Source: Planctomycetota bacterium (lineage in GTDB: Bacteria; Planctomycetota; Phycisphaerae; Phycisphaerales; SM1A02). Taken from it: 64,000 bases of DNA. The stretch lies in contig JAAERN010000076.1 in the NCBI GenBank assembly GCA_024230295.1, positions 1 to 64,000 of the forward strand, given 5' to 3'. Positions 1-30,107 of the stretch are shown piece by piece (the stretch's first letter is position 1; each line of letters starts with the position of its first letter). Both the position numbers and the translations under genes were made by a program. The notes beneath the pieces were generated by a model. It saw only the letters and a program-made list of their open reading frames with translations. It made no database searches and was not told the origin of the DNA.

Positions 1-237
1 GGAGAAGGAACGCACCATCACCAAGAAGGACTACGACCAGGCTCTCGCCAAGATGACCGAGATGGTCAAAGCCGGCGAGATCACTCGCGAGCAGATGGAG
101 CAGCGACTCAAGCGCATGAAGCAGAGTATGGAGAAGGAACGCACCATCACCAAGAAGGACTACGACCAGGCTCTCGCCAAGATGACCGAGATGGTCAAAG
201 CCGGCGAGATCACTCGCGAGCAGATGGAGCAGCGACT
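1..237 (+). repeat. 129-bp coding tandem repeat
   Basis: Bases 1-108 are repeated without mismatch at 130-237, giving a period of 129 bp (43 codons). Divergence begins at 109/238. The array runs off the left edge, so its copy number is unknown. Identity at the DNA level, including third codon positions, points to recent duplication or gene conversion. Confidence 0.95.
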
Positions 238-397
238 TGAGCGAATGGGACGGATCGTGGCTGGAGAAGATCAGCCAGATGGCACTTCCGATGAGTGCCG
301 CGTACTTGGTATCGTTCTGCGCAAGGCCGTAAGCACTGGCGAGATGACCGCCGAAGAAGCCAAGGCTGCGTGGGAAGCTGCCTGCGGCAAAAAGTGA
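2..397 (+). CDS. Repeat protein, 3' part (5' end outside window)
   Basis: The frame is open to the left edge, so this is the C-terminal part of a longer protein. It holds two nearly identical 43-residue units, each made of two half-units of about 21-22 residues of the form ITxxxxxxxLxxM (TITKKDYDQALAKM and EITREQMEQRLKRM). A diverged copy lies near the C-terminus (GEMTAEEAKAAWEAACG), ending in GKK. The pattern is two short charged helices per unit and recalls SHOCT-like or EF-hand-like 'G-x-I/L-T-x-E' modules seen in planctomycete proteins, but I cannot name a family. No signal or membrane segment is visible in the part present. A perfect hairpin terminator follows at 426-453. Function unknown. 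Confidence 0.75.
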   Translation, partial: EKERTITKKDYDQALAKMTEMVKAGEITREQMEQRLKRMKQSMEKERTITKKDYDQALAKMTEMVKAGEITREQMEQRLERMGRIVAGEDQPDGTSDECRVLGIVLRKAVSTGEMTAEEAKAAWEAACGKK

Positions 398-14571: not shown

Positions 14572-15381
14572 TCAGAGTTCCAGGGGCTGGACGCAAACGC
14601 CCTCATCATCGACCCGGATCAGGGATTGCTCAGGCACCTCATGCCACGCAAACTCTTCGGTATCGAGCGGCTCTGAAACGATAAGCCTCGCATGCTGATC
14701 CAACTGCGTAGTCGAGCCATCGCAATTGCAGAGGTTCAGCCCTGAACCCCAGTACAAACTCGGTGCTGCCGCACCTACTGCAAAGCGCGCGCACCAGAGA
14801 CTATCGCCGCCCGTCGCTGCGATTGACATCATGAACGGGTCGTCGACATTCGCCTCATCGCGAAGTTCCAGAATCGTGTTAATCATGCCGGTGATGCCAG
14901 CGACAGGATCTTCGCGGAGTCCATGCGTCAAGGCCAATGCAAACAACGACTCCGAGTCAGTCTGCCCTTCCCGATCACCGAACCACGGATCGGCGAGTCG
15001 CGCGTCGATCGCTCGCTGCATGACCTTGAATCCGCCCACATCACCGTTGTGCTGAAACAGCCAGTTTCCCATCAGAAACGGGTGCGTGTTGGTGCGTGAC
15101 ACGATCCCCTGCGTGACGGCACGCACATGCGCGAGAAAGAGCCCGCTTCGCGTATGCCGAGCAAGGCTCTTCACGTTTTCGTCATTCCATGCAGCTCGCG
15201 TCTCGCGATACTGACCGGGATCCGGATCGTCTGTGTACCACCCGATGCCGACACCGTCACCATTGACTACCCACGAACTCTGCGTGGCGTGTTTGGACTG
15301 CACAAGGAGCGAGTGCTCCGGGTCATGCAGCAAGGTACTGAGTCGAATCTCGGGTCCGTGATAGGCAAGCCAGCGGCACAT
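14572..15381 (-). CDS. Class II glutamine amidotransferase (YafJ/EgtC-like)
   Basis: A 269-residue Ntn-type amidotransferase domain standing alone. The N-terminus MCRWLAYHGP exposes Cys2, the nucleophile after removal of Met1, which fixes the ATG at 15381. Further signatures are the SLLVQSKHA segment, GIGWYTD, FLAHVRAVTQG, THPFLMGNWLFQHNGD and a TDSESLFAL helix. The family hydrolyses a gamma-glutamyl amide; EgtC acts in ergothioneine synthesis, while YafJ's role is not established. No ergothioneine genes are adjacent. It lies 32 bp after the formyltransferase gene on the same strand. The 228 bp between it and tetR hold the candidate operator and nothing else I can call. Confidence 0.9.
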   Translation of the reverse strand: MCRWLAYHGPEIRLSTLLHDPEHSLLVQSKHATQSSWVVNGDGVGIGWYTDDPDPGQYRETRAAWNDENVKSLARHTRSGLFLAHVRAVTQGIVSRTNTHPFLMGNWLFQHNGDVGGFKVMQRAIDARLADPWFGDREGQTDSESLFALALTHGLREDPVAGITGMINTILELRDEANVDDPFMMSIAATGGDSLWCARFAVGAAAPSLYWGSGLNLCNCDGSTTQLDQHARLIVSEPLDTEEFAWHEVPEQSLIRVDDEGVCVQPLEL

Positions 15382-15413
15382 ACAGCGGCAGGATAGCGAC
15401 TGGCGGTCACTTC

Positions 15414-16202
15414 CTACCTAAGGCGGTGGCCGGAGGCCTTGAGGCGCTTGAGATCTTCTCGCGTCGGCATCGTGTAATCGGTCGCCTCGGATTCGTCGTT
15501 GGGCATCGTGTCGTAGTCGCCAGCCTCAACGAGGCGGATGCACTCGATGATGGCCTCGGCGGCCAGATCCTTCGAACGCGTCATGATGTCCTCGACCGTA
15601 TCTCGCGGCCAGATGCGATATCGGCGCTGCACGATGATCGGTCCGTCGTCGAGTTTCTCGTTGACCAGGTGCACGCTCACGCCCCCCTCCTGCTCACCAT
15701 TGGCAAGCGTCCAGAAACTCGGCATGAGCCCCCTGTACTTGGGAAGCAGCGCGCCGTGGCAATTGACGATTCCCTTCGGTGTCTGCTCCCGAAGTTTCTT
15801 GCCATAGAACTGCGTGCCGCTGATCGACACGATGAATTCCACGCCTTCTTCTCGCAAGTGCTCGCGAAACTCGTCGCTGTTGACGTTGACCGCCTCGGTC
15901 ACTGGCACGCCGTACTTTCTCGCCACTGCCTTGACGCTGTAGCAGGTCCGAGTAGAGCCAAGCCATTCGTTGAAAACCTTGCCCGCGATCTTGCGGCACA
16001 GGAACTTCCGGAGTTTCCACTGGAAGTAGCCGAATCCATACAGTTTGAACAGGTCCAGCGCAGTTCCGACAAGCCCCCGCTTGCCCTGCGCCACAGACTG
16101 GATATTGATCCCGGCGGTCGAATCTGCAAACTCCCGCAAGTACTTATCGAGCACCTTGGGAAGGAGAAACGGCTCGTTCTGAATGAATACGTACTTCTTC
16201 AC
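15414..16202 (-). CDS. Formyltransferase-fold protein
   Basis: A 262-residue protein of the methionyl-tRNA/sugar formyltransferase fold. The catalytic region is GIVNCHGALLPKYRGLMPSF (Asn and His of the N-H-D triad) followed by LDDGPIIVQRRY with the Asp. It lacks the C-terminal OB domain of Fmt and has an unusual N-terminal region of about 90 residues, so it is not initiator-tRNA formyltransferase. Transfer of a formyl group to an amino sugar is the best inference, because it is coupled by GTGA (16199-16202) to a glycosyltransferase. Start is GTG 16202. Confidence 0.82.
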   Translation of the reverse strand: MKKYVFIQNEPFLLPKVLDKYLREFADSTAGINIQSVAQGKRGLVGTALDLFKLYGFGYFQWKLRKFLCRKIAGKVFNEWLGSTRTCYSVKAVARKYGVPVTEAVNVNSDEFREHLREEGVEFIVSISGTQFYGKKLREQTPKGIVNCHGALLPKYRGLMPSFWTLANGEQEGGVSVHLVNEKLDDGPIIVQRRYRIWPRDTVEDIMTRSKDLAAEAIIECIRLVEAGDYDTMPNDESEATDYTMPTREDLKRLKASGHRLR

Positions 16203-17434
16203 GACTTCTCTTCTACCTCATCACAGAATCGCCCGCACAAAATCGCCTTGGAATAGGCGCCTCGGATGGTCTCCTGCGCCCGTTGCCCCATCTCCCGAAG
16301 TACCTCGGGGGGCGTCGATCGAATCTCTTCAAGAACACGCCTGGCCCCTTCCACATCGCCGTGCGGAATATGCCAGCCAATGTTGTTCTCACGAACGAGA
16401 TCCGAGGCATGGCACGGGTCTGGGGCCAACAGAAGAATGGGCCTCCCTACCGCCATCGCACCGTAGATCTTGCATGGATGCACGATACCGACCACATCGT
16501 CGCCCACCGACACCAGATGAACATCGGCAGCGCTCAGCGAATACCGAAGCGTCTCAAGTGGCTGATACGGAAGCGACCGCACATTACTTGGATGCTCTGA
16601 TGCAATCGTGTCATCGACAAGCTGCTTGCCGACGCCGCCACCAATGAAGAGAAACTCCAAGCCGTCGTCGTCTTGCATCAACAAGGCGGCGTCCAGCACA
16701 GTCTTGATCGGTGTGGAAAAGCCGTGATTCCCGCTATACATCACGACGAACTTGTTGCCCTCGACGTGCTGCTCCCGCCACGGGTTGTCTACGTGGTCGA
16801 TCATCTCCATGTGGTCATCATGCGGCCAGGGTGGCATGACCACAGTCTTGGCTTCCACGTCGCGCTTCTTCAGGAGACGCGCCAACATGAACCGATCGAG
16901 CGCCACGACGCGCCTCGCACGCCCAAGAACGCGGCGATTCAACCAGTTCATGATCCGAACCGGCAGCGAACCGTCCTTGACCTTGCCCAACTCAATGACC
17001 TGATCAGGGTTGACGTCCATGACCCAGTAAATGATCGGCTTAAATCGGAGCCAAGAGATCACGAGGGCCGCGATCGGACACATCGGCGGTGATGTACTGA
17101 CGATGATCCTGTCAACGCCGCGGGCAAAGAGCCCGCGAAAGATCTGCTGAAACATGAGAAGCAGGCCGCCGAGAATGCGGAGCGGAATCGAAGCCTTCCC
17201 GAAACTTGAAAGCGGCATACGCCGAATCTCGACGCCGTCCCGCAGTTCCCGTAGGGGAAACTTCTGCGATGGATCGTCGTACCCGCGTGCTGCCGCATAC
17301 ACGACGACGCGATATCCCCTCTCGACGAGTTCCACAGCCGCATCGTGCAAGTACTGACCGACTGCGGCTGGATCTGGCACATAGACCTGCGTGAGAACAA
17401 GAATGGTGCCGCGAGTTGGAGGCGACGTACTCAT
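16199..17434 (-). CDS. Glycosyltransferase family 4 (WbuB-like)
   Basis: A 411-residue GT-B enzyme. The N-terminal half opens ILVLTQVYVPDPAAVGQYLHD and holds the acceptor side. The C-terminal half carries KFVVMYSGNHGFSTPIKTVL and FLFIGGGVGKQLV, then VGIVHPCKIYGAMAVGRPIL, the nucleotide-sugar binding region with the EX7E-like site replaced by a His-Pro-Cys-Lys stretch as in WbuB-type enzymes. It is probably cytoplasmic, acting on lipid-linked glycan. Start ATG 17434. The 238 bp upstream, up to the sulfotransferase stop at 17673, contain no convincing gene. Confidence 0.88.
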   Translation of the reverse strand: MSTSPPTRGTILVLTQVYVPDPAAVGQYLHDAAVELVERGYRVVVYAAARGYDDPSQKFPLRELRDGVEIRRMPLSSFGKASIPLRILGGLLLMFQQIFRGLFARGVDRIIVSTSPPMCPIAALVISWLRFKPIIYWVMDVNPDQVIELGKVKDGSLPVRIMNWLNRRVLGRARRVVALDRFMLARLLKKRDVEAKTVVMPPWPHDDHMEMIDHVDNPWREQHVEGNKFVVMYSGNHGFSTPIKTVLDAALLMQDDDGLEFLFIGGGVGKQLVDDTIASEHPSNVRSLPYQPLETLRYSLSAADVHLVSVGDDVVGIVHPCKIYGAMAVGRPILLLAPDPCHASDLVRENNIGWHIPHGDVEGARRVLEEIRSTPPEVLREMGQRAQETIRGAYSKAILCGRFCDEVEEKS

Positions 17435-17672
17435 AAGGGTCCGATCCGTGTTTTCTCTGCTGGGCAACCACCATTGAATGCGTGGTGCCAAGACTCCTCA
17501 AATCGGTCTTCTTGGCCTTGATTCTGAGATACAAGCCGCAGATCGGTGAGAAATAGCACTCTCACAGCTGACCGCAACAAATACCGACCACGACCTCATT
17601 CTCTGCTCTTTGCCACCACCACCGCAGCTCGCCAAGCCTTTGCAAATCAAAGAGATAGCGAATCCGACGGGG

Positions 17673-19181
17673 TCAGTCATCCCAGGTATCGAGTTCATCA
17701 CCCAGTGCATCGATAAGCGGCCCAAGGTGCTTCTCGTAATTCTTCCACCTCGCGACCGAGGAGCGGTACATCTTCTTGCCGACCTGATCGTATGAAATCG
17801 TGGCTGGAATCCGCTTGCTCTTGTGAAATTCAAGCACCTGATCATCCCAGTCAAGCCCGAGGTACTTGATCAGACGGCGGCTCTCGCCCTCCTGATCCTC
17901 GGTCAACTTCTCGTAGGAGATCTCGTGAATCTCCATATCGAGCACCTCAGCCCAGTGGCGGGCCAGTTGCTGCCGCGTGCGATACATAATCGCCAAATTC
18001 TCAAGCTTCGACGTGTACGTATGTCCAGACGCGAGCAGGTTGGTCGTATGGCATGACAAGAGGTTGTCGAGCGGATGCCGCTTGATGTGAATGGCTCGTA
18101 GCCCAGGAAGCACCACTGAGAGCATGCCGAGCATCTCATATGAGTTTAGGACCTTGTTGACGACCCGGCACTTTCCCTTCGCCGCAACATCGATCGTTTC
18201 GGTGTACAGCGCCTGCATGTCCCGAATGTTCTGAGGAAGAAGATCTATGAGACACTTCGGATAGGGCAGATAGGAATCGAGCTCCCGCTGCAGCCGATAC
18301 ATCATGACATATGTAATCGCCAATTCTCCAACAGCCCCAACATCAGAGTGCATCTGAAGAATCTGCTCCATGAGACTCGTGCCACTACGCGGCATCCCGA
18401 GCACGAAGACAGCACGCTCGTATTCAAAGCCTTCCCTCCGCCACAACTTCAAATTTTTTGCGTTGAAATCATTGATGATTTGATCAGTCATCTTGATGCG
18501 AGCTTCACCATCAAATGGCTTCCCGCCAATCTCGTGCGCCTCCTGAGCGGTCGCCCAGGCGTCGTCATAGGCCCCTCCCCGATCAAACAACTTCGTCAGA
18601 TGAAATCCTGCTTCAAGCCGAATATCAACTCCAAAAGACTCCTCGGCAAACCCTTCACGCAGAAGATGTTCTGCCTCATCAACCTGTTTCAGTTTCGAGT
18701 GCGCCTTTCCGGCGAGTACTTTCCATGGACAATTCGGATCCAGACGCTTGGCAATCTGAGCCTGTTCCAATGCCTCTTCGCCACGATTGACTCGCTCAAG
18801 TGTATCTGCGTATTGCAGATGCGAAGCTGCTTCATTCGGTGCCACATCGACCAACCGCCCTGCATACTCGTCTGCAATGTCCGCAAATCCAGATCGGGCT
18901 GCTGCAGCAGCAGCCTTGCTCAAAAGCACCTTGCTTGCAGGATCCAAGGCGGCACCTTGCATCGCGTAATTCATGGCAGTCACAAAGTCATTCTGCGCCC
19001 ACGCAACATCAACGATCGCCGCATAACCGCCGGCATACTTGGGATGGTCTGCAACGAGATCAAGCGCTGCAGCCCTTGCAAATTCAGTTAATCCCCGCTT
19101 GACCAGCATATTGACGTAGTCATATCTCGCCAATGGGTCTGTGGCTTTACTGGAGGGCGGAGGAGGAGGCTGGGGGAACAT
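17673..19181 (-). CDS. TPR-sulfotransferase 1
   Basis: A 502-residue two-domain protein. Residues about 20-215 are helical TPR-like repeats. Residues about 255-490 are a sulfotransferase domain with the 5'-phosphosulfate loop FVLGMPRSGTSLMEQIL and the 3'-phosphate region LRAIHIKRHPLDNLLS, both binding the sulfate donor PAPS. The C-terminal ISYDQVGKKMYRSSVARWKNYEKH is conserved in this family. No signal peptide is visible. The N-terminus is proline-rich. It is the second gene of a minus-strand pair after TPR lipoprotein 1 (66 bp gap) and is mirrored by a homologous pair on the plus strand. The acceptor is unknown; a surface glycan or secreted protein is likely. Confidence 0.9.
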   Translation of the reverse strand: MFPQPPPPPSSKATDPLARYDYVNMLVKRGLTEFARAAALDLVADHPKYAGGYAAIVDVAWAQNDFVTAMNYAMQGAALDPASKVLLSKAAAAAARSGFADIADEYAGRLVDVAPNEAASHLQYADTLERVNRGEEALEQAQIAKRLDPNCPWKVLAGKAHSKLKQVDEAEHLLREGFAEESFGVDIRLEAGFHLTKLFDRGGAYDDAWATAQEAHEIGGKPFDGEARIKMTDQIINDFNAKNLKLWRREGFEYERAVFVLGMPRSGTSLMEQILQMHSDVGAVGELAITYVMMYRLQRELDSYLPYPKCLIDLLPQNIRDMQALYTETIDVAAKGKCRVVNKVLNSYEMLGMLSVVLPGLRAIHIKRHPLDNLLSCHTTNLLASGHTYTSKLENLAIMYRTRQQLARHWAEVLDMEIHEISYEKLTEDQEGESRRLIKYLGLDWDDQVLEFHKSKRIPATISYDQVGKKMYRSSVARWKNYEKHLGPLIDALGDELDTWDD

Positions 19182-19247
19182 AATGGGGCTCCTGAGAATC
19201 GGGGGCTGTTACCACTCACCCCAGACTATGACATGATCGGACAATGG

Positions 19248-20636
19248 TCAGGGCTGGGCCAGTTCGTTCATCAATTCGATGACTCTGACATCCCCAGGTG
19301 CAATACCAGCAGCCGTGCCTGCATCCTTCATCGCACCATCCACATCCCCCGCCATATGTTTCAAGCGGCTGCTCAGGATCAGTAGATTCATATCGTTTGC
19401 GAAGTCCGGCCGCAATTGCTCGAGTACCGCGAGGGCTGGCTGTGGCGATCCGAGTTGGAGGTATATCTCCGCTGCCCGCAACCCTAGACTTGGTTTGTGA
19501 GGCATCATTTCTGCAGCACGGGCAAAGTCGCTGGCCGCCCCTGTCAAATCTCCGGCCTGTCGCCTCACTTCCCCTCGCAACATCCAATTCTGACCATCGG
19601 TCTCGGTGAGTGCAATGGCCGCATCAAGATGCTCAATCGCTCGGTTCAAATCCGCAGAGTCGCCACGCTCTTGCCATCGCGTAAACAGTACGCCTGCCGC
19701 CTGCGTATGCGCCGCGTGCTCATCTGGGCTTGATTCCAGAATACCCTCGACGATGTCGAGTGCCTTCTGTAACTTCCCGGCAGATCGAAGTGCCTTGGCC
19801 AGATCGATCTGAAGCCCGATCTGCTCTGGTGCCTCCATAGACAGCTGTCGGAACATGTCGAGAGCTCGCTGATACTGCCTCTGACTCAGAAGTGCTTGGG
19901 CCACTGCTTGCCGCGCGTGAATACTGACACCATGTGTAATCGCCGCTGTGGACCATGGATCATGCCAGACAGGTTTCGCCCCTTGGCCAAGACGCAGGTG
20001 CGAGGATGCCTCTGCACGCCCTGATCGTTGCAGGGCCCGCCCAAACAAGAGTCGAGCATATCGGTCATTTGGCTTGGCTTTGACCAGATCATTAAGCACG
20101 CCTGCAGCATCGCGAGGTCGCTCGCACTCCAAAAAGGCTCGCGCAAGAACCAACCGAGCCATGCGACTGTTCTGATTACGCTTAAGCGAGTCTGTCGCCA
20201 ACGTTACCGCAATCAACGGTTCACCAAGATCAAGATGAAGCAAGGCTGATCGCCAAGATGCTGCAGGTGGACTCTCTGCGGCCTCAGTCGAGGCCACGTA
20301 TGCCGCTCTGGCCGCATCCCGATCGCCCTGCCCCTCATGGGACATTGCCAGCAGCATCCATGCGGTGCCATCATCTGGGGTGAGACTTACAACCTGCTCA
20401 AAACAAATCACTGCCGCGTCATACTGGGTATCAGCAAAGTACGTTTGGCCGAGCACAGACCAAGCATTCGCATTGAACGGCTCCAATTCAACTGCGTCTT
20501 GCCTCGCCGTGAGGAGTCGAGCGCTGGCACCGTGCACTGCTGGGGTGTACTCCGGACGAGGCGGAGGCATCCCTGATTGCTGTGTTTCGGAACACCCCAG
20601 AAGACACGCCAAAATGAAAAGGACAAATCGAGGCAT
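19248..20636 (-). CDS. TPR lipoprotein 1
   Basis: A 462-residue lipoprotein: signal residues 1-14 with lipobox LLGC (Cys15), then roughly ten tetratricopeptide-type helix pairs throughout (for example NANAWSVLGQTYFADTQYD). It shares a specific central block, PNDRYARLLFGRALQRSG then HLR and DPW, with TPR lipoprotein 2 encoded divergently, so the two are paralogs. The start is ATG 20636, giving a correct signal peptide; an upstream start at 20699 would run into the divergent gene. It probably acts in the periplasm as a scaffold. The divergent sulfotransferase gene starts just 47 bp away. Confidence 0.87.
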   Translation of the reverse strand: MPRFVLFILACLLGCSETQQSGMPPPRPEYTPAVHGASARLLTARQDAVELEPFNANAWSVLGQTYFADTQYDAAVICFEQVVSLTPDDGTAWMLLAMSHEGQGDRDAARAAYVASTEAAESPPAASWRSALLHLDLGEPLIAVTLATDSLKRNQNSRMARLVLARAFLECERPRDAAGVLNDLVKAKPNDRYARLLFGRALQRSGRAEASSHLRLGQGAKPVWHDPWSTAAITHGVSIHARQAVAQALLSQRQYQRALDMFRQLSMEAPEQIGLQIDLAKALRSAGKLQKALDIVEGILESSPDEHAAHTQAAGVLFTRWQERGDSADLNRAIEHLDAAIALTETDGQNWMLRGEVRRQAGDLTGAASDFARAAEMMPHKPSLGLRAAEIYLQLGSPQPALAVLEQLRPDFANDMNLLILSSRLKHMAGDVDGAMKDAGTAAGIAPGDVRVIELMNELAQP

Positions 20637-20682
20637 GATCGCATGGTACGGATCTACCGGATTGCCGTGATAGGATGGCCCT

Positions 20683-22203
20683 ATGCCCCCCGCTCCCACG
20701 CCGCCACATCATTCAGGCGATGCACCCATCCCAGAATCGGGAGCAGCACCGCTCGGTGATCGCGTCGGTGCTGCCCTGGAACCGCTCAAGAACGGCGACT
20801 TCCGGACTGCAGGCGTGCTGGCCCAATCGCTGATCCAAGACTACCCAGACAGACCGGCCGGCTACCGCATCATGGCGCAGATCAGCAACTTCCGTGGGGA
20901 TCAGCCCAGCGCCATCAGATGGATCGATCAAGCCATCAGCCGCAATCCACGGAATGTACAACTAAAAATCTCTCGATCCCAATTCTGCCATGACGCTGGT
21001 CGCGTGCAGGAAGCGATCGACATTCTTGAAACGATCACCATTGATGGCCCATTCGCGGACAAGGTGAAGTGGCGACACATCATGAGCCTTGAGCGACTCG
21101 GCCGAATCGATGAGGCTGCAGCACTTCTTGAGGAAATACCGCACCCGCTTCCGCCTGCCATGGAGGCATTCAGATCTCAGCTCGAATACCGGCAAGGTCA
21201 TATTGAAGCAGCGCGGCACCGCCTTGAGAGACTGCTAAGCCAGTCAAGCACTCCCACACGCGTCCGAGGGGAGGGGCTATTTCAACTGAGCCGGCTCTGC
21301 GATGCGATGGGCAACTATGACGCGGCCTTTCAAGCGGCAGCAACTGCCAACATAGAGTTTCGTGGTGACTTTGACCCGGCTGCATTCGAATCCTCAACTG
21401 AAACGATGATCGAGTATTTCACCCCAGAACGCTTCGAGTCCCTCCCAAGGAGCAATGTGGATTCAGACCTCCCAGTCTTCATCATCGGCCTCCCCAGAAG
21501 CGGCACGTCACTGCTGGAGCAGATCATCGACGCACACCCCAAAGCAGCTGGGAGTGGAGAACGCCGCGATCCCATCCTCATCTCAGAAGATCTCACGCAT
21601 GTACTTGGCGGGTCCTTCCCATCGTGCCTCGACAGTGTGACTGAAGCAACTTTGTCTGCTGCCGGCGGCCAGTACGTACATATGCTCACGTCGTACGGAT
21701 TCGGTGTGTCCCGAATCGTGAACAAGTCTCTCAGCCTCGACCGCATTGCAGGCTTGCTCCCGCTGCTGACACCTCGATGCCGCGTCATCTTCATGTCTCG
21801 CAACCCGCTCGACAATTTGCTCTCGATCTTCCTGCATCCACTCCGCCGCGATCGAAATCCGTGGGCCCAATCGCTCGACGACCTGTGTGTTGTGCGGCAA
21901 TCATTTGACAGGCTTCGAGAACACTGGCTCAATGTCCTCCCATGTCCGTGCCTCGATGTGTCGTATGAGCAACTTGTCCATGACCAACAGAACACCACCG
22001 AAGAGGTGCTCCGTTTCCTTGATCTCCCATGGAACGACGCTTGCATGTCATTTCACAATTCGAAACGCGCCGTCATGACACCCTCCTATGATCAGGTCAA
22101 CACGTCCATGAACACCAATGCCATAAATCGGTGGAAGAACTATGAGCAGCACATCGGACCACTGCTCCACGCATTTCCACCAGACCTGCAGTCTCAGCCA
22201 TGA
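20683..22203 (+). CDS. TPR-sulfotransferase 2
   Basis: A 506-residue paralog of the minus-strand sulfotransferase. TPR-like helices span about residues 25-215, and the sulfotransferase domain about 255-500. The PAPS loop reads FIIGLPRSGTSLLEQII and the 3'-phosphate region CRVIFMSRNPLDNLLS; the C-terminal motif is PSYDQVNTSMNTNAINRWKN. It starts at ATG 20683 with no signal peptide and ends in an ATGA overlap with the next gene. The order sulfotransferase, TPR lipoprotein, CRTAC1 lipoprotein forms one coupled operon. Confidence 0.9.
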   Translation: MPPAPTPPHHSGDAPIPESGAAPLGDRVGAALEPLKNGDFRTAGVLAQSLIQDYPDRPAGYRIMAQISNFRGDQPSAIRWIDQAISRNPRNVQLKISRSQFCHDAGRVQEAIDILETITIDGPFADKVKWRHIMSLERLGRIDEAAALLEEIPHPLPPAMEAFRSQLEYRQGHIEAARHRLERLLSQSSTPTRVRGEGLFQLSRLCDAMGNYDAAFQAAATANIEFRGDFDPAAFESSTETMIEYFTPERFESLPRSNVDSDLPVFIIGLPRSGTSLLEQIIDAHPKAAGSGERRDPILISEDLTHVLGGSFPSCLDSVTEATLSAAGGQYVHMLTSYGFGVSRIVNKSLSLDRIAGLLPLLTPRCRVIFMSRNPLDNLLSIFLHPLRRDRNPWAQSLDDLCVVRQSFDRLREHWLNVLPCPCLDVSYEQLVHDQQNTTEEVLRFLDLPWNDACMSFHNSKRAVMTPSYDQVNTSMNTNAINRWKNYEQHIGPLLHAFPPDLQSQP

Positions 22204-23591
22204 GAGGCATCACGGTGGTCTCGGCAGTGATGGCGATGCTGCCACTCGCCTGCGTACCGACCCCAGAGCCTCCGGTTCCGGATGATCTTGCAACCATCGA
22301 TCCCGGCGCCCGTATCGTCGTAGAGAAGTCTCTTGAAGTTGTCCGACAGAATCCTCATGCTGCCGAGGCATGGCTACGGTTGGGCCAGGTCTATCTCGCA
22401 CACAAGATGTCCACTGAGGCTGCCGCAAGCCTTGCACACCTTGCAGAAGTGGCGCCCACAGCCGAGGTTCATACGCTACACGCGATCGCCCTCGATCAGC
22501 TCGGCGACTCTGCGGCTCGCCGCATCGCCATCAACAATGCAATTGCATTCGGCGGCAACCGAACGATTCCCCTATGGCGTGCCGCTCTCTGGGCGCTCGA
22601 AACTGGTGAAGTTGATCGAGCTGCGACGATGGCTGAGAAAGCCAAGGCGCATCCAGAAGCGGGATATACCGAACCAATGGTGCTCGCGGGAGTACGTCTC
22701 GCACAGGACCGACCAGATGAGGCCGCATTACTCATAGAACCTATTGTGCAGCAGCGGCCACAGGATGGATACGCCCATTGGATACTTGGACGCGCACTGC
22801 TCGCAGCAGGCAATGATGCGGAGGCAAGGCGGCACCTGCGACGCGCTGGTGACGCACTGCCCGATTACTACGACCCATGGGAGGATAAGGCTGAACACGC
22901 TCGCGCCGACTTCACCGTCCGCCTCGGCCAAGTGGCAGCCCAAGCCCGCGCCCGACAGTTTGCACACGCACGCCAGACACTCCAATCTCTGGAGGCCATG
23001 TATGGCGAGCGTCGAGAACTCGACCTTGCTGCGGCAACGCTCGCATTCATGGAAGGTGATCACGACAGATCTACACGAATCTTGACTCGCCTTATCAAGT
23101 CTTGGCCGAAGTGGTTCCCCCCCCATGCCCAGAAGGCTCAGCAACTCCTGAAACGAGCACAGTCGCTAGGCGGCAGGAGGCTCATCGCCGATGCGAGAAA
23201 TGCTGCCGAGACTGCCACCGCCATCTCTCCCGGCAAGATGGAAGGGTGGGTCCTCCTCAGCCGAATTGCCCGCCTGCAGGGCGATGTCGACACCGAGATC
23301 TCCTCGCTTCAACAAGCCGTCGAACTTGCACCTGAAAGATTCGATCTCAGCCTGCAATACGCAGAATCGCTTGCACTGGGTGGCCAACCGACACGCGCCA
23401 TTGATGTGTTGGGTGAGCACGAAGACATCTTCGGCACATCTCTCGCAACATCACTGCTCAGGGTGCAGTCGCTGGTCGCCGCTGGTCGTGGGGATGAAGC
23501 CCGCGTGATATTCGAAGCATGCGAACGACAATCGCCGAATAATCCACAAGTGCTTCGTATGAAACAACTCCTGAAAAAGGCCGGCCTGTGA
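22200..23591 (+). CDS. TPR lipoprotein 2
   Basis: A 463-residue lipoprotein with signal and lipobox PLAC (Cys18), followed by a proline-rich linker and TPR-type helix pairs to the end. The block PQDGYAHWILGRALLAAG, HLRRAG and YYDPW closely parallels TPR lipoprotein 1. It starts in an ATGA overlap (22200-22203) and ends in a GTGA overlap (23588-23591), so its synthesis is tied to both neighbours. It is expected on the periplasmic face of a membrane. Confidence 0.87.
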   Translation: MRGITVVSAVMAMLPLACVPTPEPPVPDDLATIDPGARIVVEKSLEVVRQNPHAAEAWLRLGQVYLAHKMSTEAAASLAHLAEVAPTAEVHTLHAIALDQLGDSAARRIAINNAIAFGGNRTIPLWRAALWALETGEVDRAATMAEKAKAHPEAGYTEPMVLAGVRLAQDRPDEAALLIEPIVQQRPQDGYAHWILGRALLAAGNDAEARRHLRRAGDALPDYYDPWEDKAEHARADFTVRLGQVAAQARARQFAHARQTLQSLEAMYGERRELDLAAATLAFMEGDHDRSTRILTRLIKSWPKWFPPHAQKAQQLLKRAQSLGGRRLIADARNAAETATAISPGKMEGWVLLSRIARLQGDVDTEISSLQQAVELAPERFDLSLQYAESLALGGQPTRAIDVLGEHEDIFGTSLATSLLRVQSLVAAGRGDEARVIFEACERQSPNNPQVLRMKQLLKKAGL

Positions 23592-25225
23592 AGTATGCCA
23601 CCACTGCGTGTCTCTTGACAACATCATTGATTACCGCTTGCAAGCAAGACGCCCGGCAGTCGGCTCCCGAGCAGTCCACTACAACAGATCCACCATGGTT
23701 CATCGATGAAGGCCCGAGCCGTGGAGTTCGTTTCACTGTACGGGCGGACCTTCCGGGCGATGGGCCACAACTGCCCGAGATCGTGGCGGGCGGAGCGGCA
23801 GCCCTCGATGTGGACAATGATGGCTGGATAGACCTGTACCTGATACAGGCTGATGCAATCGAAGGCAATGTACTGCTCCGCAATCGCGGCGATGGAACTT
23901 TTGAGGATGTCACCGACGGCAGCGGCGCGGATGATCGCCGCTGGGGGATGGGTGTCGCAAGCGGCGATATTGATGGTGACGGCGATGTCGATCTCTACAT
24001 CACGAATTTTGGCCGCAACACACTACTTCGTAACGATGGAGAATTTCATTTTACAGACATCACAGAAGACGCTGGGGGCGGAGACGAAGGACTTAGTGCG
24101 AGCGCCAGTTTTTTCGATGGTGACATGGACGGCGACCTCGATCTTATCGTGACGAACTACGTTAGCTGGGAACCACAGCGAGAACTCGAGTGCCGGAGCC
24201 GCACTGGGCTACTCGACTATTGCGCGCCTGCCCACTACGCATCGCCGACCACGGATGTGTTGTACCGCAATGATCTAGGCACATTTGTTGATGTCACCGA
24301 ACACGCGGGCCTAGGGAACGCGAGGGGGAATGGCCTTGGAGTTCTGGCCCAAGATTTCACGGGTGATGACCTACAGGACCTCTTCATTGCCAATGACGGC
24401 AATGCAGATCGACTGTGGATCAATCAGGGCAATCTCAAATTCGTCGACCGAGCTATGGAAATGGGATGCGACCGCGATCTCACTGGTAAAGAAAAGGCGG
24501 GCATGGGCGTCGCAAGTGAAGACCTTGATGGCAACGGCGATTTCGATTTGTTGGTGTGCAACCTGCATGGTGAATCAGACTCGCTCTATCTGATGAAGAA
24601 CGGTCGCTTTGTTGACACAACTGGCAGGCATGGACTCTCTGCCTTGACTCGCCCCTTCACCCGATTTGGCCTAGGATTTCGTGATTTCGATTGTGACGGC
24701 GATTTCGAACTCTACGAGGCCAACGGTCGCGTCAGCATGAGTGATCCACTGTGGGCAGATGACGTCTATGCTGAGCCAAATCTGCTTCTTCGCCGCGAAG
24801 GCGCCCGGTTTGTCGAAGTGTCACCACGCGGAGGTGTTGTGGGCCAAGAACCGCGAACAAGCCGCGCCGCAGTTTTCCTTGATGCAAATAACGATGGCCG
24901 CGTTGATGTACTTGTCATCAACAGGTCTTCCCCCGCCCGGCTTCTTATGAACCACACAACTGGTGGACACTGGATCATGCTCGATGTTCGCGATGCCAAT
25001 GGCGGTCCTGCCATTGGAGCGTATGCGGAAGTGACTACAGGGAGTCAAACGCAGCAATACCGCGTGCGGACCGATGGGAGTTACCTCTCCGCCCACGATC
25101 CTCGCCTGCATATGGGTCTTGGGAACACAGACAGAGTCGAGCGAGTTCTCGTCCAATGGCCAGACGGCTTTGAACTGGTGCTCGATGACATTGAACTCGA
25201 CGCCATCACACGCATTCAGCGATAG
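23588..25225 (+). CDS. CRTAC1/ASPIC-UnbV family repeat lipoprotein
   Basis: A 545-residue lipoprotein (lipobox ITAC, Cys18) made of FG-GAP/VCBS beta-propeller repeats with Ca2+-binding-like loops (DVDNDGWIDLYL, DIDGDGDVDLYI, DMDGDLDLIV, DANNDGRVDVLV). It ends in an ASPIC/UnbV domain of about 90 residues (GGPAIGAYAEVTTGSQ, then LHMGLG and VLVQWPDG). These proteins are extracytoplasmic; a precise role is not established. Start GTG 23588, overlapping the previous stop. A strong hairpin follows at 25256-25281. Context suggests it is the extracellular partner of the sulfotransferase/TPR pair. Confidence 0.9.
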   Translation: MKYATTACLLTTSLITACKQDARQSAPEQSTTTDPPWFIDEGPSRGVRFTVRADLPGDGPQLPEIVAGGAAALDVDNDGWIDLYLIQADAIEGNVLLRNRGDGTFEDVTDGSGADDRRWGMGVASGDIDGDGDVDLYITNFGRNTLLRNDGEFHFTDITEDAGGGDEGLSASASFFDGDMDGDLDLIVTNYVSWEPQRELECRSRTGLLDYCAPAHYASPTTDVLYRNDLGTFVDVTEHAGLGNARGNGLGVLAQDFTGDDLQDLFIANDGNADRLWINQGNLKFVDRAMEMGCDRDLTGKEKAGMGVASEDLDGNGDFDLLVCNLHGESDSLYLMKNGRFVDTTGRHGLSALTRPFTRFGLGFRDFDCDGDFELYEANGRVSMSDPLWADDVYAEPNLLLRREGARFVEVSPRGGVVGQEPRTSRAAVFLDANNDGRVDVLVINRSSPARLLMNHTTGGHWIMLDVRDANGGPAIGAYAEVTTGSQTQQYRVRTDGSYLSAHDPRLHMGLGNTDRVERVLVQWPDGFELVLDDIELDAITRIQR

Positions 25226-25369: not shown

Positions 25370-25921
25370 TCAGCGTCGGCGGCGACGTCCAGCGAGACCG
25401 GCGAGGCCCAGAAGGGCAAGTGCGCCGGGAGCAGGAACTGGGGCCAAGTTGACCCAACCGTTACCCGAGAAGTGACCAGCAGAGTTGCCTGTGCCGTCAT
25501 TCCAAGTGCTGTAAGCAACAAAGCCGAAGCTGCTGCTGGCGTAGTAACCGCCAATTGCGCCACCGCCAGTGATACCACTGATGGTATAGCTGCCACCAGG
25601 CGTCGAAGCGCCATGGGCGGAGCTAACTCCACCGGTCCACATGTAACCAGGGGAACCACTGACTGAGAACATTCCGACGCCCAAACGTGCCTCGGAAGCC
25701 CAGTTCTCGTAGCTCGATCCTTCGTTCCAGTAAACCGTCAGGTCGACACTGAAACCGTACGAGACGATCTCTGCGCCATCACCATCAATGATGTTGCTGA
25801 CAAAGGAAACCGCATCGGCGTTGTAGCTACCATTGATGTCGAAGGCGACGATATCGGCAGCTGCAGCACCGGCCATTGCGACGGAAGCAAGTCCAGCCGC
25901 TGTCAAAGTAAGCCTGTTCAT
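25370..25921 (-). CDS. PEP-CTERM type surface protein
   Basis: A 183-residue exported protein. It has a signal peptide (about residues 1-22, ending AAAAD), a Gly/Ser/Tyr-rich central part, and a C-terminal sorting signal: VPAPGA, a hydrophobic stretch of Ala/Leu/Gly, then GRRRRR at the very end. The signal matches the PEP-CTERM plan (tripeptide, hydrophobic helix, basic tail), with the VPAPGA form frequent in Phycisphaerae. The start is ATG 25921, preceded by GGAGGAG; a TTG five codons earlier is rejected. The mature function is unknown. Confidence 0.88.
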   Translation of the reverse strand: MNRLTLTAAGLASVAMAGAAAADIVAFDINGSYNADAVSFVSNIIDGDGAEIVSYGFSVDLTVYWNEGSSYENWASEARLGVGMFSVSGSPGYMWTGGVSSAHGASTPGGSYTISGITGGGAIGGYYASSSFGFVAYSTWNDGTGNSAGHFSGNGWVNLAPVPAPGALALLGLAGLAGRRRRR

Positions 25922-26600: not shown

Positions 26601-29600
26601 GTGCCAATCATGCTCAGCTCAATCGTCGTCGCTGCCGCCGCATCCACCTTCCCGCAATACCCCAGCCTCTCACCGAACGCCTCACATCTGGTGTACTCAG
26701 ACCGCGGCGACCTGTGGTCCGTGCCCGCAACCGGTGGAGCCGCCACGCGATTGACGAGCCACCCAGCAGCCGAACTCCGCACCGCCTTCGCACCAGATGG
26801 ATCGTGGATCGCCTTCGAGTCCGATCGTGACGGCACCCGCAACATCTATCGCATGCCAGTCGACATCCGGCAAGGCGCGTTGGTCGCTGACGGCCCAATT
26901 GAACGCGTCACGACCTCCGAGCGATGGGAATTACTCTCGGGAGTGACGCCCGATGGCCAGGCCGTGCTCTTCCATTCTTACCGCGAGCCCGAGATCTATC
27001 GCCAGCCGCAGATGTACCGCGCCCCGGTTGACGGCGGGCCCGTTGAGCGGCTGACCGATGCCTTCGGTCGCGCACCCCGCCAAGCCGAGGACGGCACCGT
27101 TTTCTTCAGCCGCGGCTTCGCGCCATGGGAACGACCCGCCTATCGCGGCAGCGGCAACCGAAATGTCTGGTCAATGGATTTAACAGATCCCGCTGCACCA
27201 GCGTTTACCAAGCACACCAACGATCTCGCCAATGAAGGCGAGGCCTTTCCGACATCCGACGGCGGCTTCGTCATGCTCTCTTCACAGGCTGGCCAAAACG
27301 ACATCTGGACCATCGACCCGAAGGGCAACGCCACCAATCACACCAACCTCTCGCCCGGCGATGCCGCGACGATGGGGCACGGTACTCGTGACCTCACGGT
27401 CTCCGCGGACGGCACCACCGCCGCAACCGCCCTCTGGGACACCCTGCACACGCTCGACCTGACAGACACCGCCGCCTCGTTACGACCAATCGAGATCTCA
27501 CACGCCGCCGCCGATACATCCATGCTCGACCGCCGCATCGAGCGACTCGATCACAAAGTGGGCGAGGCGGCTCTGCACCCATCGGGCGAGGCCGTCGCGG
27601 TCGTCGCGCGGGGCGAAGTGCTCGTTCGCAGCACCGAAGACGACCACCCCACCCGCCGCGTCACCCACAGCCATGCTCGCGAGAAGCAGATTGCTTGGTC
27701 GCCGGACGGCACCCTGCTCTACTTCGCCAGTGACGAGGGTGGCGATGAAGGCATCTGGGCCGCCACGGTCGCGCTCACACGGGACGATCTGACACCCGAG
27801 GAGGAAGAGGACGAAGACACCTCCGACGACGGCGACGATGCACCAGCCGATGACAAAAACACTGAGGCGGACGACGAAGCCGAAGAGACGACCGAGCACG
27901 CCGATACGCCGGAGGACGACGACGCCACCGAGAGCGGCGACGACGATCCGGATGACGAATCCAAGGACGACGACACACCTGATCCCAACGAAACTGGCGC
28001 TGCCTGGGCGGGCGCCCTCCGATTCGATGTCTCAAAGGTCATCGACGCCCCCGCCGCGTCGCGGCCCATGCCCTCACCCGATGGTCGCTCGCTCCTGTAT
28101 CAGCGTGGCAACGGCGACCTCTGGCTGCACGATCTCGAAACCGATTCAGACACGCTGCTGTTGGAAAGTTGGGATGCGCCCGAAGTGCGGTGGGCGAGCG
28201 ATTCGCGGCACATCGTGTACTCCGTGAGTGATCTCGACTTCAACAACGACATCTGGCTGATGGACGTGCAGGCACCCGCCGAGGCGGTCAACCTCACCCA
28301 GCACCCGGATATCGACCGCGCGCCTCGCATCACCGACGATGGCCGCACGCTCGTCTTTCTGAGTGATCGCAATCGCATCGGCGACAACTGGGACTACGAC
28401 GTCTGGGCAATTCCACTCGACCCCTCGCTCGAAGACATGACCGCCTACGAACTCGACGCGTCCATCAAGGAAGCCGCGAAGGCCGCTGGCAAGAAGAAGA
28501 TTCTGCCGATCGTGTCCTTCGAATCGGAGGAGGAACCCGACGAGCCCGCTGAAGATGAGACAAAGGCTGAGGACGAAGACGAAGACATTCTCACATTCAC
28601 CGATCTGGATACCGCCTGGAAGCGGGCCACCCGCCTGACGAGCCTCAATGGCAGCGAGGACGACCTCTACCTCACGCCGAGTGGAGACGCCATCGTGTTC
28701 AGCGGCACGGTCGGTGAAGACTCCGGACTCTGGACCATGAACCACCGGGGCAAGGACCGCACGAAGATCACTTCCGGCAGCGTCTCGAACGTTCGCGGCA
28801 ACCTCACGGGTAAGAAGGTGACCTTCGTCGGTGGCAACGCTGCCAAGCATGCGCCGAGCACGGGCGGAAAGACCAAGTCGTGGCCCGTTGACGCCGACGC
28901 CCGCATCGATGTCGCCAGTGAGCAACGCCAGAAGTTCAGTGAGGCAGCGCGAACATTCGGCCGCACCTTCTACCACCCCACCGTGAAAGGGCTCGACTGG
29001 GACGCAATCTCCGAGCGGTACGCCGATCTCGCCGCGCAGACCCGCACCTCGCAGGCCTTCAACCGCGTCGTCGAACTGCTCTTTGGCGAAGTGAACGGCT
29101 CGCACACGGGCATCTATGGTGGCGCGAAGTATTCCGGTCCGCGTCAGGGCATCGGCCACCTCGGCATCGACGTCGAGGCAGTCGAGGACGGCTATCGCGT
29201 CACGCGAGTGCTACCCAACGGGCCGTCAGACCTGGACCAGGGCGGTCTTGAAGAAGGCGATGTCGTCCTTACTATTGCAGATCGGCCACTGGCTGAGGAT
29301 GGCACCCTGCGGGACCTCCGCGCGGCGATGCTGGACACCGCTGGCGCCGAGACACTGGTGGACGTCCGCGGCGTAGATGGCGTCGAACGGACGGTGCTGC
29401 TTGTCCCGATGACCTACGGCAGCTGGAGCGGACTGGCCCGCGAGGACGAACTTCAGCAGCGCCGCGACCGCGTTGCAGATGCAAGCGATGATCGCATCGG
29501 CTATCTGCACATCCAGGGCATGAACATGCCGAGCGTCCACCGATTCGAGCAAGACCTCTACGCCGCCGCCCACGGCAAGGATGGGCTCGTCATCGACGTG

Positions 29601-30107
29601 CGTGACAACGGTGGCGGGTTCACAACGGACATTCTGCTCGCGAGCCTCACAGCCCCCGCGCACGCATACACCATTCCACGCGGCGCCAAGCTCGAAGATG
29701 TGCGGCCCGACTCATACCCGCGGGACCGGCGACTGCTCTACGCCTACCAGCGACCCGTCGTCGTTCTGTGCAATGAGAATTCGTTCAGCAACGCCGAAAT
29801 CTTCAGCCACGCGATTCAAGCAACACAGCGCGGCACGCTCGTTGGTGAAGAAACCTTCGGCGGCGTCATCTCGACCGGTTCCTTCACGTTGATCGACGGA
29901 TCGCGGGTCCGCCAACCCTTCCGAGGCTGGTACTTGCAGGACGGCACCGACATGGAGAGCCGCGGCGCGATACCCGACATCCGCGTCGAGCGTACGCCGG
30001 CTAACGAAGCCGCTGGACGTGACGCGCAACTCGAAGCAGCAGTCTCCACGCTGCTCAAGCAGTTGCCCGATTCGCCACCGAGCGTCAACCCCCGACCTGC
30101 ATCGTGA
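26601..30107 (+). CDS. Tricorn-type S41 serine protease
   Basis: A 1,168-residue protein. A short hydrophobic N-terminus (MLSSIVVAAAAS) precedes two blocks of WD40/PD40-like propeller repeats (about residues 15-390 and 475-770), then a tricorn core, a PDZ-like domain (about 855-925, GYRVTRVLPNGPSD) and a C-terminal S41 protease domain. The probable catalytic Ser lies in NENSFSNAEIF, and DVRDNGGGF precedes it. Family members degrade peptides and denatured proteins. Two strongly acidic insertions (about 398-468 and 638-665) are unusual. Start GTG 26601 with AGGAGG five bases upstream. The N-terminus suggests export, but the signal is weak. The end overlaps a small ORF by GTGA. Confidence 0.92.
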   Translation: MPIMLSSIVVAAAASTFPQYPSLSPNASHLVYSDRGDLWSVPATGGAATRLTSHPAAELRTAFAPDGSWIAFESDRDGTRNIYRMPVDIRQGALVADGPIERVTTSERWELLSGVTPDGQAVLFHSYREPEIYRQPQMYRAPVDGGPVERLTDAFGRAPRQAEDGTVFFSRGFAPWERPAYRGSGNRNVWSMDLTDPAAPAFTKHTNDLANEGEAFPTSDGGFVMLSSQAGQNDIWTIDPKGNATNHTNLSPGDAATMGHGTRDLTVSADGTTAATALWDTLHTLDLTDTAASLRPIEISHAAADTSMLDRRIERLDHKVGEAALHPSGEAVAVVARGEVLVRSTEDDHPTRRVTHSHAREKQIAWSPDGTLLYFASDEGGDEGIWAATVALTRDDLTPEEEEDEDTSDDGDDAPADDKNTEADDEAEETTEHADTPEDDDATESGDDDPDDESKDDDTPDPNETGAAWAGALRFDVSKVIDAPAASRPMPSPDGRSLLYQRGNGDLWLHDLETDSDTLLLESWDAPEVRWASDSRHIVYSVSDLDFNNDIWLMDVQAPAEAVNLTQHPDIDRAPRITDDGRTLVFLSDRNRIGDNWDYDVWAIPLDPSLEDMTAYELDASIKEAAKAAGKKKILPIVSFESEEEPDEPAEDETKAEDEDEDILTFTDLDTAWKRATRLTSLNGSEDDLYLTPSGDAIVFSGTVGEDSGLWTMNHRGKDRTKITSGSVSNVRGNLTGKKVTFVGGNAAKHAPSTGGKTKSWPVDADARIDVASEQRQKFSEAARTFGRTFYHPTVKGLDWDAISERYADLAAQTRTSQAFNRVVELLFGEVNGSHTGIYGGAKYSGPRQGIGHLGIDVEAVEDGYRVTRVLPNGPSDLDQGGLEEGDVVLTIADRPLAEDGTLRDLRAAMLDTAGAETLVDVRGVDGVERTVLLVPMTYGSWSGLAREDELQQRRDRVADASDDRIGYLHIQGMNMPSVHRFEQDLYAAAHGKDGLVIDVRDNGGGFTTDILLASLTAPAHAYTIPRGAKLEDVRPDSYPRDRRLLYAYQRPVVVLCNENSFSNAEIFSHAIQATQRGTLVGEETFGGVISTGSFTLIDGSRVRQPFRGWYLQDGTDMESRGAIPDIRVERTPANEAAGRDAQLEAAVSTLLKQLPDSPPSVNPRPAS

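Follow-up and report, generated by a model that had tools for sequence, protein, structure and literature searches.

To our knowledge, the evidence for tyrosine sulfation of bacterial proteins comes essentially from a single small secreted peptide, RaxX. A search of open-licence papers, in which absence is weak evidence, returned no match for bacterial TPR proteins, tyrosine sulfation and sulfotransferases together. For trigger factors, work on Myxococcus describes a rule by which extra copies lose the ribosome-binding site while one complete copy stays (PMC11559001).

The locus analysed here lies in a window of 64,000 nucleotides, the whole stretch of planctomycete DNA under study, from a 2.7 Mb assembly of 180 contigs. 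It is real and recurs in relatives, and its conserved partners differ from those named in an initial annotation of this DNA, which had grouped sulfotransferases with TPR and CRTAC1 lipoproteins: the genes most closely associated with the sulfotransferase encode a PEP-CTERM protein and, in the clade of the first sulfotransferase (ST1), a trigger factor paralogue, neither of which was named there. These neighbourhoods of sulfotransferase, PEP-CTERM and trigger factor genes suggest that this group of planctomycetes sulfates proteins before delivering them to the surface.

Gene content of the locus and fold of its sulfotransferases

The two divergent arms of the locus (Table 1) hold, as the initial annotation described, two TPR-sulfotransferases with the loops GMPRSGTSL (ST1) and GLPRSGTSL (ST2), each with a Sulfotransfer_3 domain behind TPR repeats, and one CRTAC1 lipoprotein, in which the FG-GAP repeats and UnbV_ASPIC domain of the CRTAC1/ASPIC-UnbV family were both found. 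The coupling and spacing it reported are likewise read directly from the sequence, with an ATGA overlap at 22200-22203 joining ST2 and TPRb, a GTGA overlap at 23588-23591 joining TPRb and CRTAC1, and 47 bases between the starts of TPRa and ST2 (20636/20683). For TPRa, a start at the ATG at 20636 is consistent with a signal peptide carrying the lipobox LLGC, while the listed GTG at 20699 simply gives the longest open reading frame. That TPRa and TPRb are homologous held up (27%, E 1.7e-29); their description as two lipoproteins is less secure for TPRb, whose lipobox, PLAC with proline at -3, is non-canonical. Neither is the XrtA-linked TPR lipoprotein PrsT, their scores of 90 and 65.8 bits lying far under the TIGR02917 cut-off of 312.2. 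Promoter and terminator scans performed no better than on shuffled sequence.

Table 1 Features of the sulfotransferase locus in the window
Feature	Positions	Strand	Evidence
ST1, TPR-sulfotransferase of the trigger-factor-linked clade	17673..19181	-	Pfam Sulfotransfer_3 E 1.8e-30
TPRa, TPR lipoprotein (MPRFVLFILACLLGC)	19248..20636	-	TPR_19 2.3e-28
Gap of 46 bases separating the two divergent arms	20637..20682	.	Sequence
ST2, second TPR-sulfotransferase	20683..22203	+	Sulfotransfer_3 E 1.4e-31
TPRb, TPR protein with a probable non-canonical lipobox	22200..23591	+	TPR_19 3.8e-23
CRTAC1, FG-GAP/ASPIC lipoprotein (ITAC lipobox)	23588..25225	+	FG-GAP_3 1.1e-33, UnbV_ASPIC 4.3e-16
Small PEP-CTERM-type surface protein (VPAPGALALLGLAGLAGRRRRR), candidate substrate	25370..25921	-	Weak PEP-CTERM matches

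Elsewhere in the window, the locus is followed at 14572-17491 (-) by class II glutamine amidotransferase, formyltransferase and glycosyltransferase genes, which are neighbours in three relatives too (G001, G004 and G008). A large protein at 26601-30107 (+) looks by eye like a tricorn-type protease, with WD-like repeats, a PDZ domain and an S41-like end, and an open reading frame of repeated MEKERTITKKDYDQALAKMTEMVKAGEITREQMEQRLKRMKQS units at 2-397 (+) runs off the window start.

ST1 and ST2 have no signal peptide, which supports a cytoplasmic location for both. In the AlphaFold2 model of ST1 (pLDDT 91.3), residues 1-240 are predicted to form a TPR superhelix, and residues 252-502 match TPST1/2 best, with TPST1 in the lead (Z 21.8, rmsd 3.3, 244 residues). 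The top structure matches, 5wrj, 5wri and 3ap1-3, all scored Z 21-22 over ~244 residues, against a lower Z of 18.5 for Cur/OLS polyketide-type sulfotransferases. In the sequence hit lists, too, every sulfotransferase with a solved structure was a TPST, the closest solved relative of ST2 being the tick tyrosylprotein sulfotransferase 8w5z (E 6e-16). The TPST residues are kept in ST1 as the R265-S-G-T PAPS loop, the catalytic glutamate E286, the lysine K343 and the 3'-phosphate pair R368/S376, with R265 and E286 falling on TPST2 positions 78 and 99 by aligned ranges in the structure alignment; we take TPST2 residues 78, 99, 158, 183 and 191 to have the PAPS loop, glutamate, lysine and Arg/Ser roles. 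The initial annotation had allowed for a glycan or a protein acceptor, and the modelled fold points to protein (tyrosine) rather than glycan, short of proof.

In the sulfotransferase tree, ST1 belongs to a clade of 28 loci (support 0.999; SH-aLRT 99 in IQ-TREE on a smaller set), and ST2 falls in its sister group. One ST2 relative, in G008 (L040:12354-13871 (-), the same as L171), has lost the PAPS loop, with PLSGQLQ in place of PRSGTSL; it resembles a pseudo-sulfotransferase retained next to an active ST1.

Conserved neighbours in related genomes

Our survey covered 61 genomes, the window's own and 60 relatives, searched with ST2, ST1, CRTAC1 and TPRb; about 100 loci were retrieved, and their genes were called by a codon-usage script and then labelled. 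An independent scan covered GTDB genomes, and the named relatives are Phycisphaerales MAGs.

Sulfotransferases from several different subclades have as neighbours small proteins that carry a signal-like N-terminal stretch and end in a PAPGALALLGLAGLAGRRRRR-type tail. Among the family loci, PEP-CTERM genes made up 35 of the 233 genes lying no more than two genes from a TPR-sulfotransferase and 1 of 442 far genes, i.e. those at least 4 genes from a sulfotransferase or in loci without one (OR 78, p 3e-16), with tails detected by regular expression, loci that are phylogenetically non-independent and contig ends that hide neighbours. When labels were shuffled within loci, the mean was 15.9 and the maximum 27, and none of 5000 shuffles reached the observed 35. 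The linkage is seen in 20 of 26 family genomes, was replicated in other ST1-clade MAGs (8/65 vs. 1/91, p 0.004), and extends to sulfotransferases without a TPR or CRTAC1 gene nearby. In the window's own genome, a PEP-CTERM-type gene accompanies all three TPR-sulfotransferase loci (contigs C76, C26 and C100), out of about fifteen such genes detected by a genome-wide DNA pattern search. This genome also encodes an exosortase (PF09721, 152.6 bits; C84) and an APS kinase.

The PEP-CTERM gene of the window is convergent with CRTAC1, and its product is 48% identical to the one encoded next to ST1 in G008. Its tail is weak, scoring below both cut-offs (PF07589, 16.8 vs. 20.7 bits; TIGR02595, 15.4 vs. 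16), and at least one other sulfotransferase-linked member exceeds that of TIGR02595 at 18.8. Several observations count against these proteins being the substrates. The window gene is three genes from ST2 rather than adjacent, and sulfotransferase/PEP-CTERM pairs are often convergent and not co-transcribed. Only 28 of the 66 family sulfotransferase clusters have a PEP-CTERM gene within two genes, some of the rest lacking one because contigs end, and no enrichment was found outside the Phycisphaerales family. No shared acceptor motif was seen in an alignment of the linked proteins, and they are only a little richer in tyrosine than other PEP-CTERM proteins (4.6% vs. 3.3%, p 0.04, n = 42 vs. 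10).

The neighbourhood survey proposed in the initial annotation found the trio of sulfotransferase, TPR and CRTAC1 genes in several genera rather than rarely: it occurs in G008, G012, G013, G029, G030 and G036, and in contig-broken versions in G001-G005. Because homologous loci recur across other genera, the association is not one of chance, and a TPRa orthologue adjoins ST1 in G008 (337 bits). The association is real and recurrent, but it does not define a core unit. Many TPR+CRTAC1 pairs occur where there is no sulfotransferase (L034, L055-L060, including the own contig C66), which rules out a fixed trio and makes it a recurring, non-obligatory one. Most sulfotransferase loci, and about half of those in the ST1 clade, in turn lack TPR+CRTAC1 genes.

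This distribution bears on a further explanation, that the acceptor is a TPR or CRTAC1 lipoprotein, or another exported protein, and that the PEP-CTERM linkage arises from a surface programme common to both. In its favour, ST2 is in translational coupling with TPRb and CRTAC1, and the CRTAC1 genes of loci with a sulfotransferase or trigger factor partly cluster together, the window CRTAC1 grouping with them. We nevertheless judge this explanation improbable, given the frequency of the pair without a sulfotransferase, its absence from about half of the ST1-clade loci, and the persistence of the PEP-CTERM linkage where neither gene is nearby.

Other arrangements were noted around these genes. 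By eye, a TPR+CRTAC1 pair without a sulfotransferase lies a few genes from pyrH both in the own genome (L034:13785-16945, contig C66) and in G007 (L060:7385-10449), a conserved site that suggests a separate role for the pair. In five same-genus genomes, a gene of ~490 aa adjoins and is convergent with CRTAC1 (L035:5347-6843, L036:3774-5255, L037:3282-4781, L038:2-1339 and L053:127-1446), except that in L036 it adjoins the TPR gene only; its motifs are phosphodiesterase/alkaline-phosphatase-like, with TPR-like repeats and one weak Phosphodiest match. Two and three tandem TPR-sulfotransferases (L063:6567-9580 and L064:7845-12258) directly follow what by eye are ribosomal protein S2 and elongation factor Ts-like genes.

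The second conserved neighbour, a trigger factor paralogue of ~440 aa that faces the ST1 orthologues, is present in 21 of the 28 ST1-clade loci by our own count on the tree, and clade loci carry it in the independent GTDB scan too. Six of the seven clade loci without it form one subclade that includes the window (support 0.75). A profile of nine paralogues, run over the 61 genomes, showed that nearly every genome has a single canonical trigger factor and that 13 have a second one, which in each case lies in a sulfotransferase locus or, next to TPR+CRTAC1 genes, at the end of a contig. In the own genome this search found the canonical gene only, which counts against the protein-sulfation reading set out below. 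All 16 adjacent paralogue/sulfotransferase pairs measured are divergent, with 44-269 bases between them.

The paralogue matches trigger factor with E 1.1e-21 and scores 95-135 bits against TIGR00115, under the equivalog cut-off of 180. Its predicted structure (pLDDT 86.9) has the full set of N, FKBP and C domains, and matches 1w26 with Z 17 over 389 residues and the N domain 1oms with Z 10.2. The ribosome-docking motif GFRxGxxP is lost, the whole loop being absent from every paralogue, while 13 of 14 canonical copies keep it and the remaining one is cut by a contig end. Absence of the motif from the paralogues agrees with the loss of the ribosome site described as a rule for extra trigger factors (PMC11559001). 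Loss of the PPIase domain could not serve to tell the two apart, since canonical copies here also lack a Pfam FKBP match, and a 410 aa gene in G008 first taken for a transposase is a trigger factor paralogue. In two genomes, only a few genes separate the canonical gene and a TPR-sulfotransferase (L163:374-1885 and L052:7505-8896), perhaps a hint at the origin of the paralogue.

Protein sulfation before export as a candidate function

A protein-sulfation locus is our preferred reading, which we hold tentatively: ST1 and ST2 would most likely use PAPS to sulfate tyrosines of a PEP-CTERM preprotein before export. In the order of steps we infer, cytoplasmic enzymes that join a TPR superhelix to a TPST-like catalytic domain would transfer sulfate to the small preprotein (in the window, the product of the PEP-CTERM-type gene) while it is still in the cytoplasm, the TPR part picking the substrate much as in O-GlcNAc transferase. 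In most relatives, a paralogue unable to dock on the ribosome may keep the preprotein open during modification. The sulfated preprotein would then pass through Sec export and exosortase sorting to surface display, and the TPR and CRTAC1 lipoproteins outside may form a separate, later module that receives or anchors the product. The surface sulfation system suggested in the initial annotation is retained in that surface-directed sulfation is the best reading, with the enzymes themselves, lacking signal peptides, on the cytoplasmic side. The wider proposition, that TPR-TPSTs act before export, with a ribosome-independent trigger factor in most relatives, and that exosortase-sorted proteins consequently bear surface sulfotyrosine, is possible and somewhat on the doubtful side.

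The strongest rival, close to the view of the initial annotation, places the sulfate on a polysaccharide, at the surface or exported, or on its lipid-linked precursor, with the PEP-CTERM protein as a partner that binds the polysaccharide. The PEP-CTERM/exosortase system was described as exopolysaccharide-associated (PMC1569441), and the glycosyltransferase and formyltransferase genes after the locus recur at this site in the three relatives named above. These glycosyltransferase neighbours were not seen at loci of other genera, however, and no polymerase, flippase or export genes were recognised in the conserved neighbourhood. Among solved structures, moreover, the catalytic domain is closest to protein-tyrosine sulfotransferases, and a TPR region joined to a transferase is the build of protein-modifying enzymes. 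We consider a polysaccharide acceptor unlikely. More improbable than any other reading is a small-molecule or lipid acceptor amid fast-evolving surface genes that are only loosely clustered. The breadth of the Sulfotransfer_3 family speaks for it, and biochemistry on any TPR member was not found in open-licence papers (absence again being weak evidence), but both the strength of the linkage after within-locus shuffling and a dedicated trigger factor paralogue, i.e. a protein chaperone, are difficult to account for unless the acceptor is a protein.

If tyrosine sulfation of PEP-CTERM proteins is indeed the function, this group of uncultured marine planctomycetes would have in sulfation a general modification of its surface proteins, the large, uncharacterised family of bacterial TPR-sulfotransferases would gain a substrate class, and a trigger factor that left the ribosome would have a job. 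Whatever the acceptor, the linkages of sulfotransferases with PEP-CTERM genes and with the trigger factor paralogue are strong, and are unreported in the open-licence literature searched.

Relation to described systems

As in the RaxST/RaxX system of Xanthomonas (PMC6637879), a cytoplasmic, PAPS-dependent, TPST-like enzyme is encoded next to a small exported protein. For RaxST (PMC6637879), reports mention neither a TPR domain nor a chaperone, whereas a TPR domain is present here, and RaxX has a double-glycine leader and RaxAB type I secretion, as against the N-terminal signal and PEP-CTERM tail of the present candidate; no RaxX-like precursor or RaxAB genes were recognised among the neighbour genes read. 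The C-terminal P-x-P, hydrophobic stretch and Arg tail, with an exosortase in the genome, correspond to PEP-CTERM/exosortase sorting (PMC1569441), from which the locus differs in its link to sulfotransferases, a link not found described in the open-licence papers searched, where absence is weak evidence. The trigger factor paralogues resemble the Myxococcus duplicates (PMC11559001) in that the extra copy lost GFRxGxxP and one complete copy stays; unlike these, they are tied to one kind of locus and occur in Planctomycetota, a phylum unmentioned in the main text of that paper. With human TPST1 and TPST2 the sulfotransferases share the catalytic fold and the PAPS and catalytic residues, but the human enzymes sit in the Golgi lumen, anchored to the membrane and lacking TPR repeats, while those here are probably cytoplasmic and have a TPR superhelix. 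A TPR superhelix followed by a transferase domain is also the arrangement of O-GlcNAc transferase and SPINDLY, whose transferase domain is unrelated, so that the likeness is one of build only.
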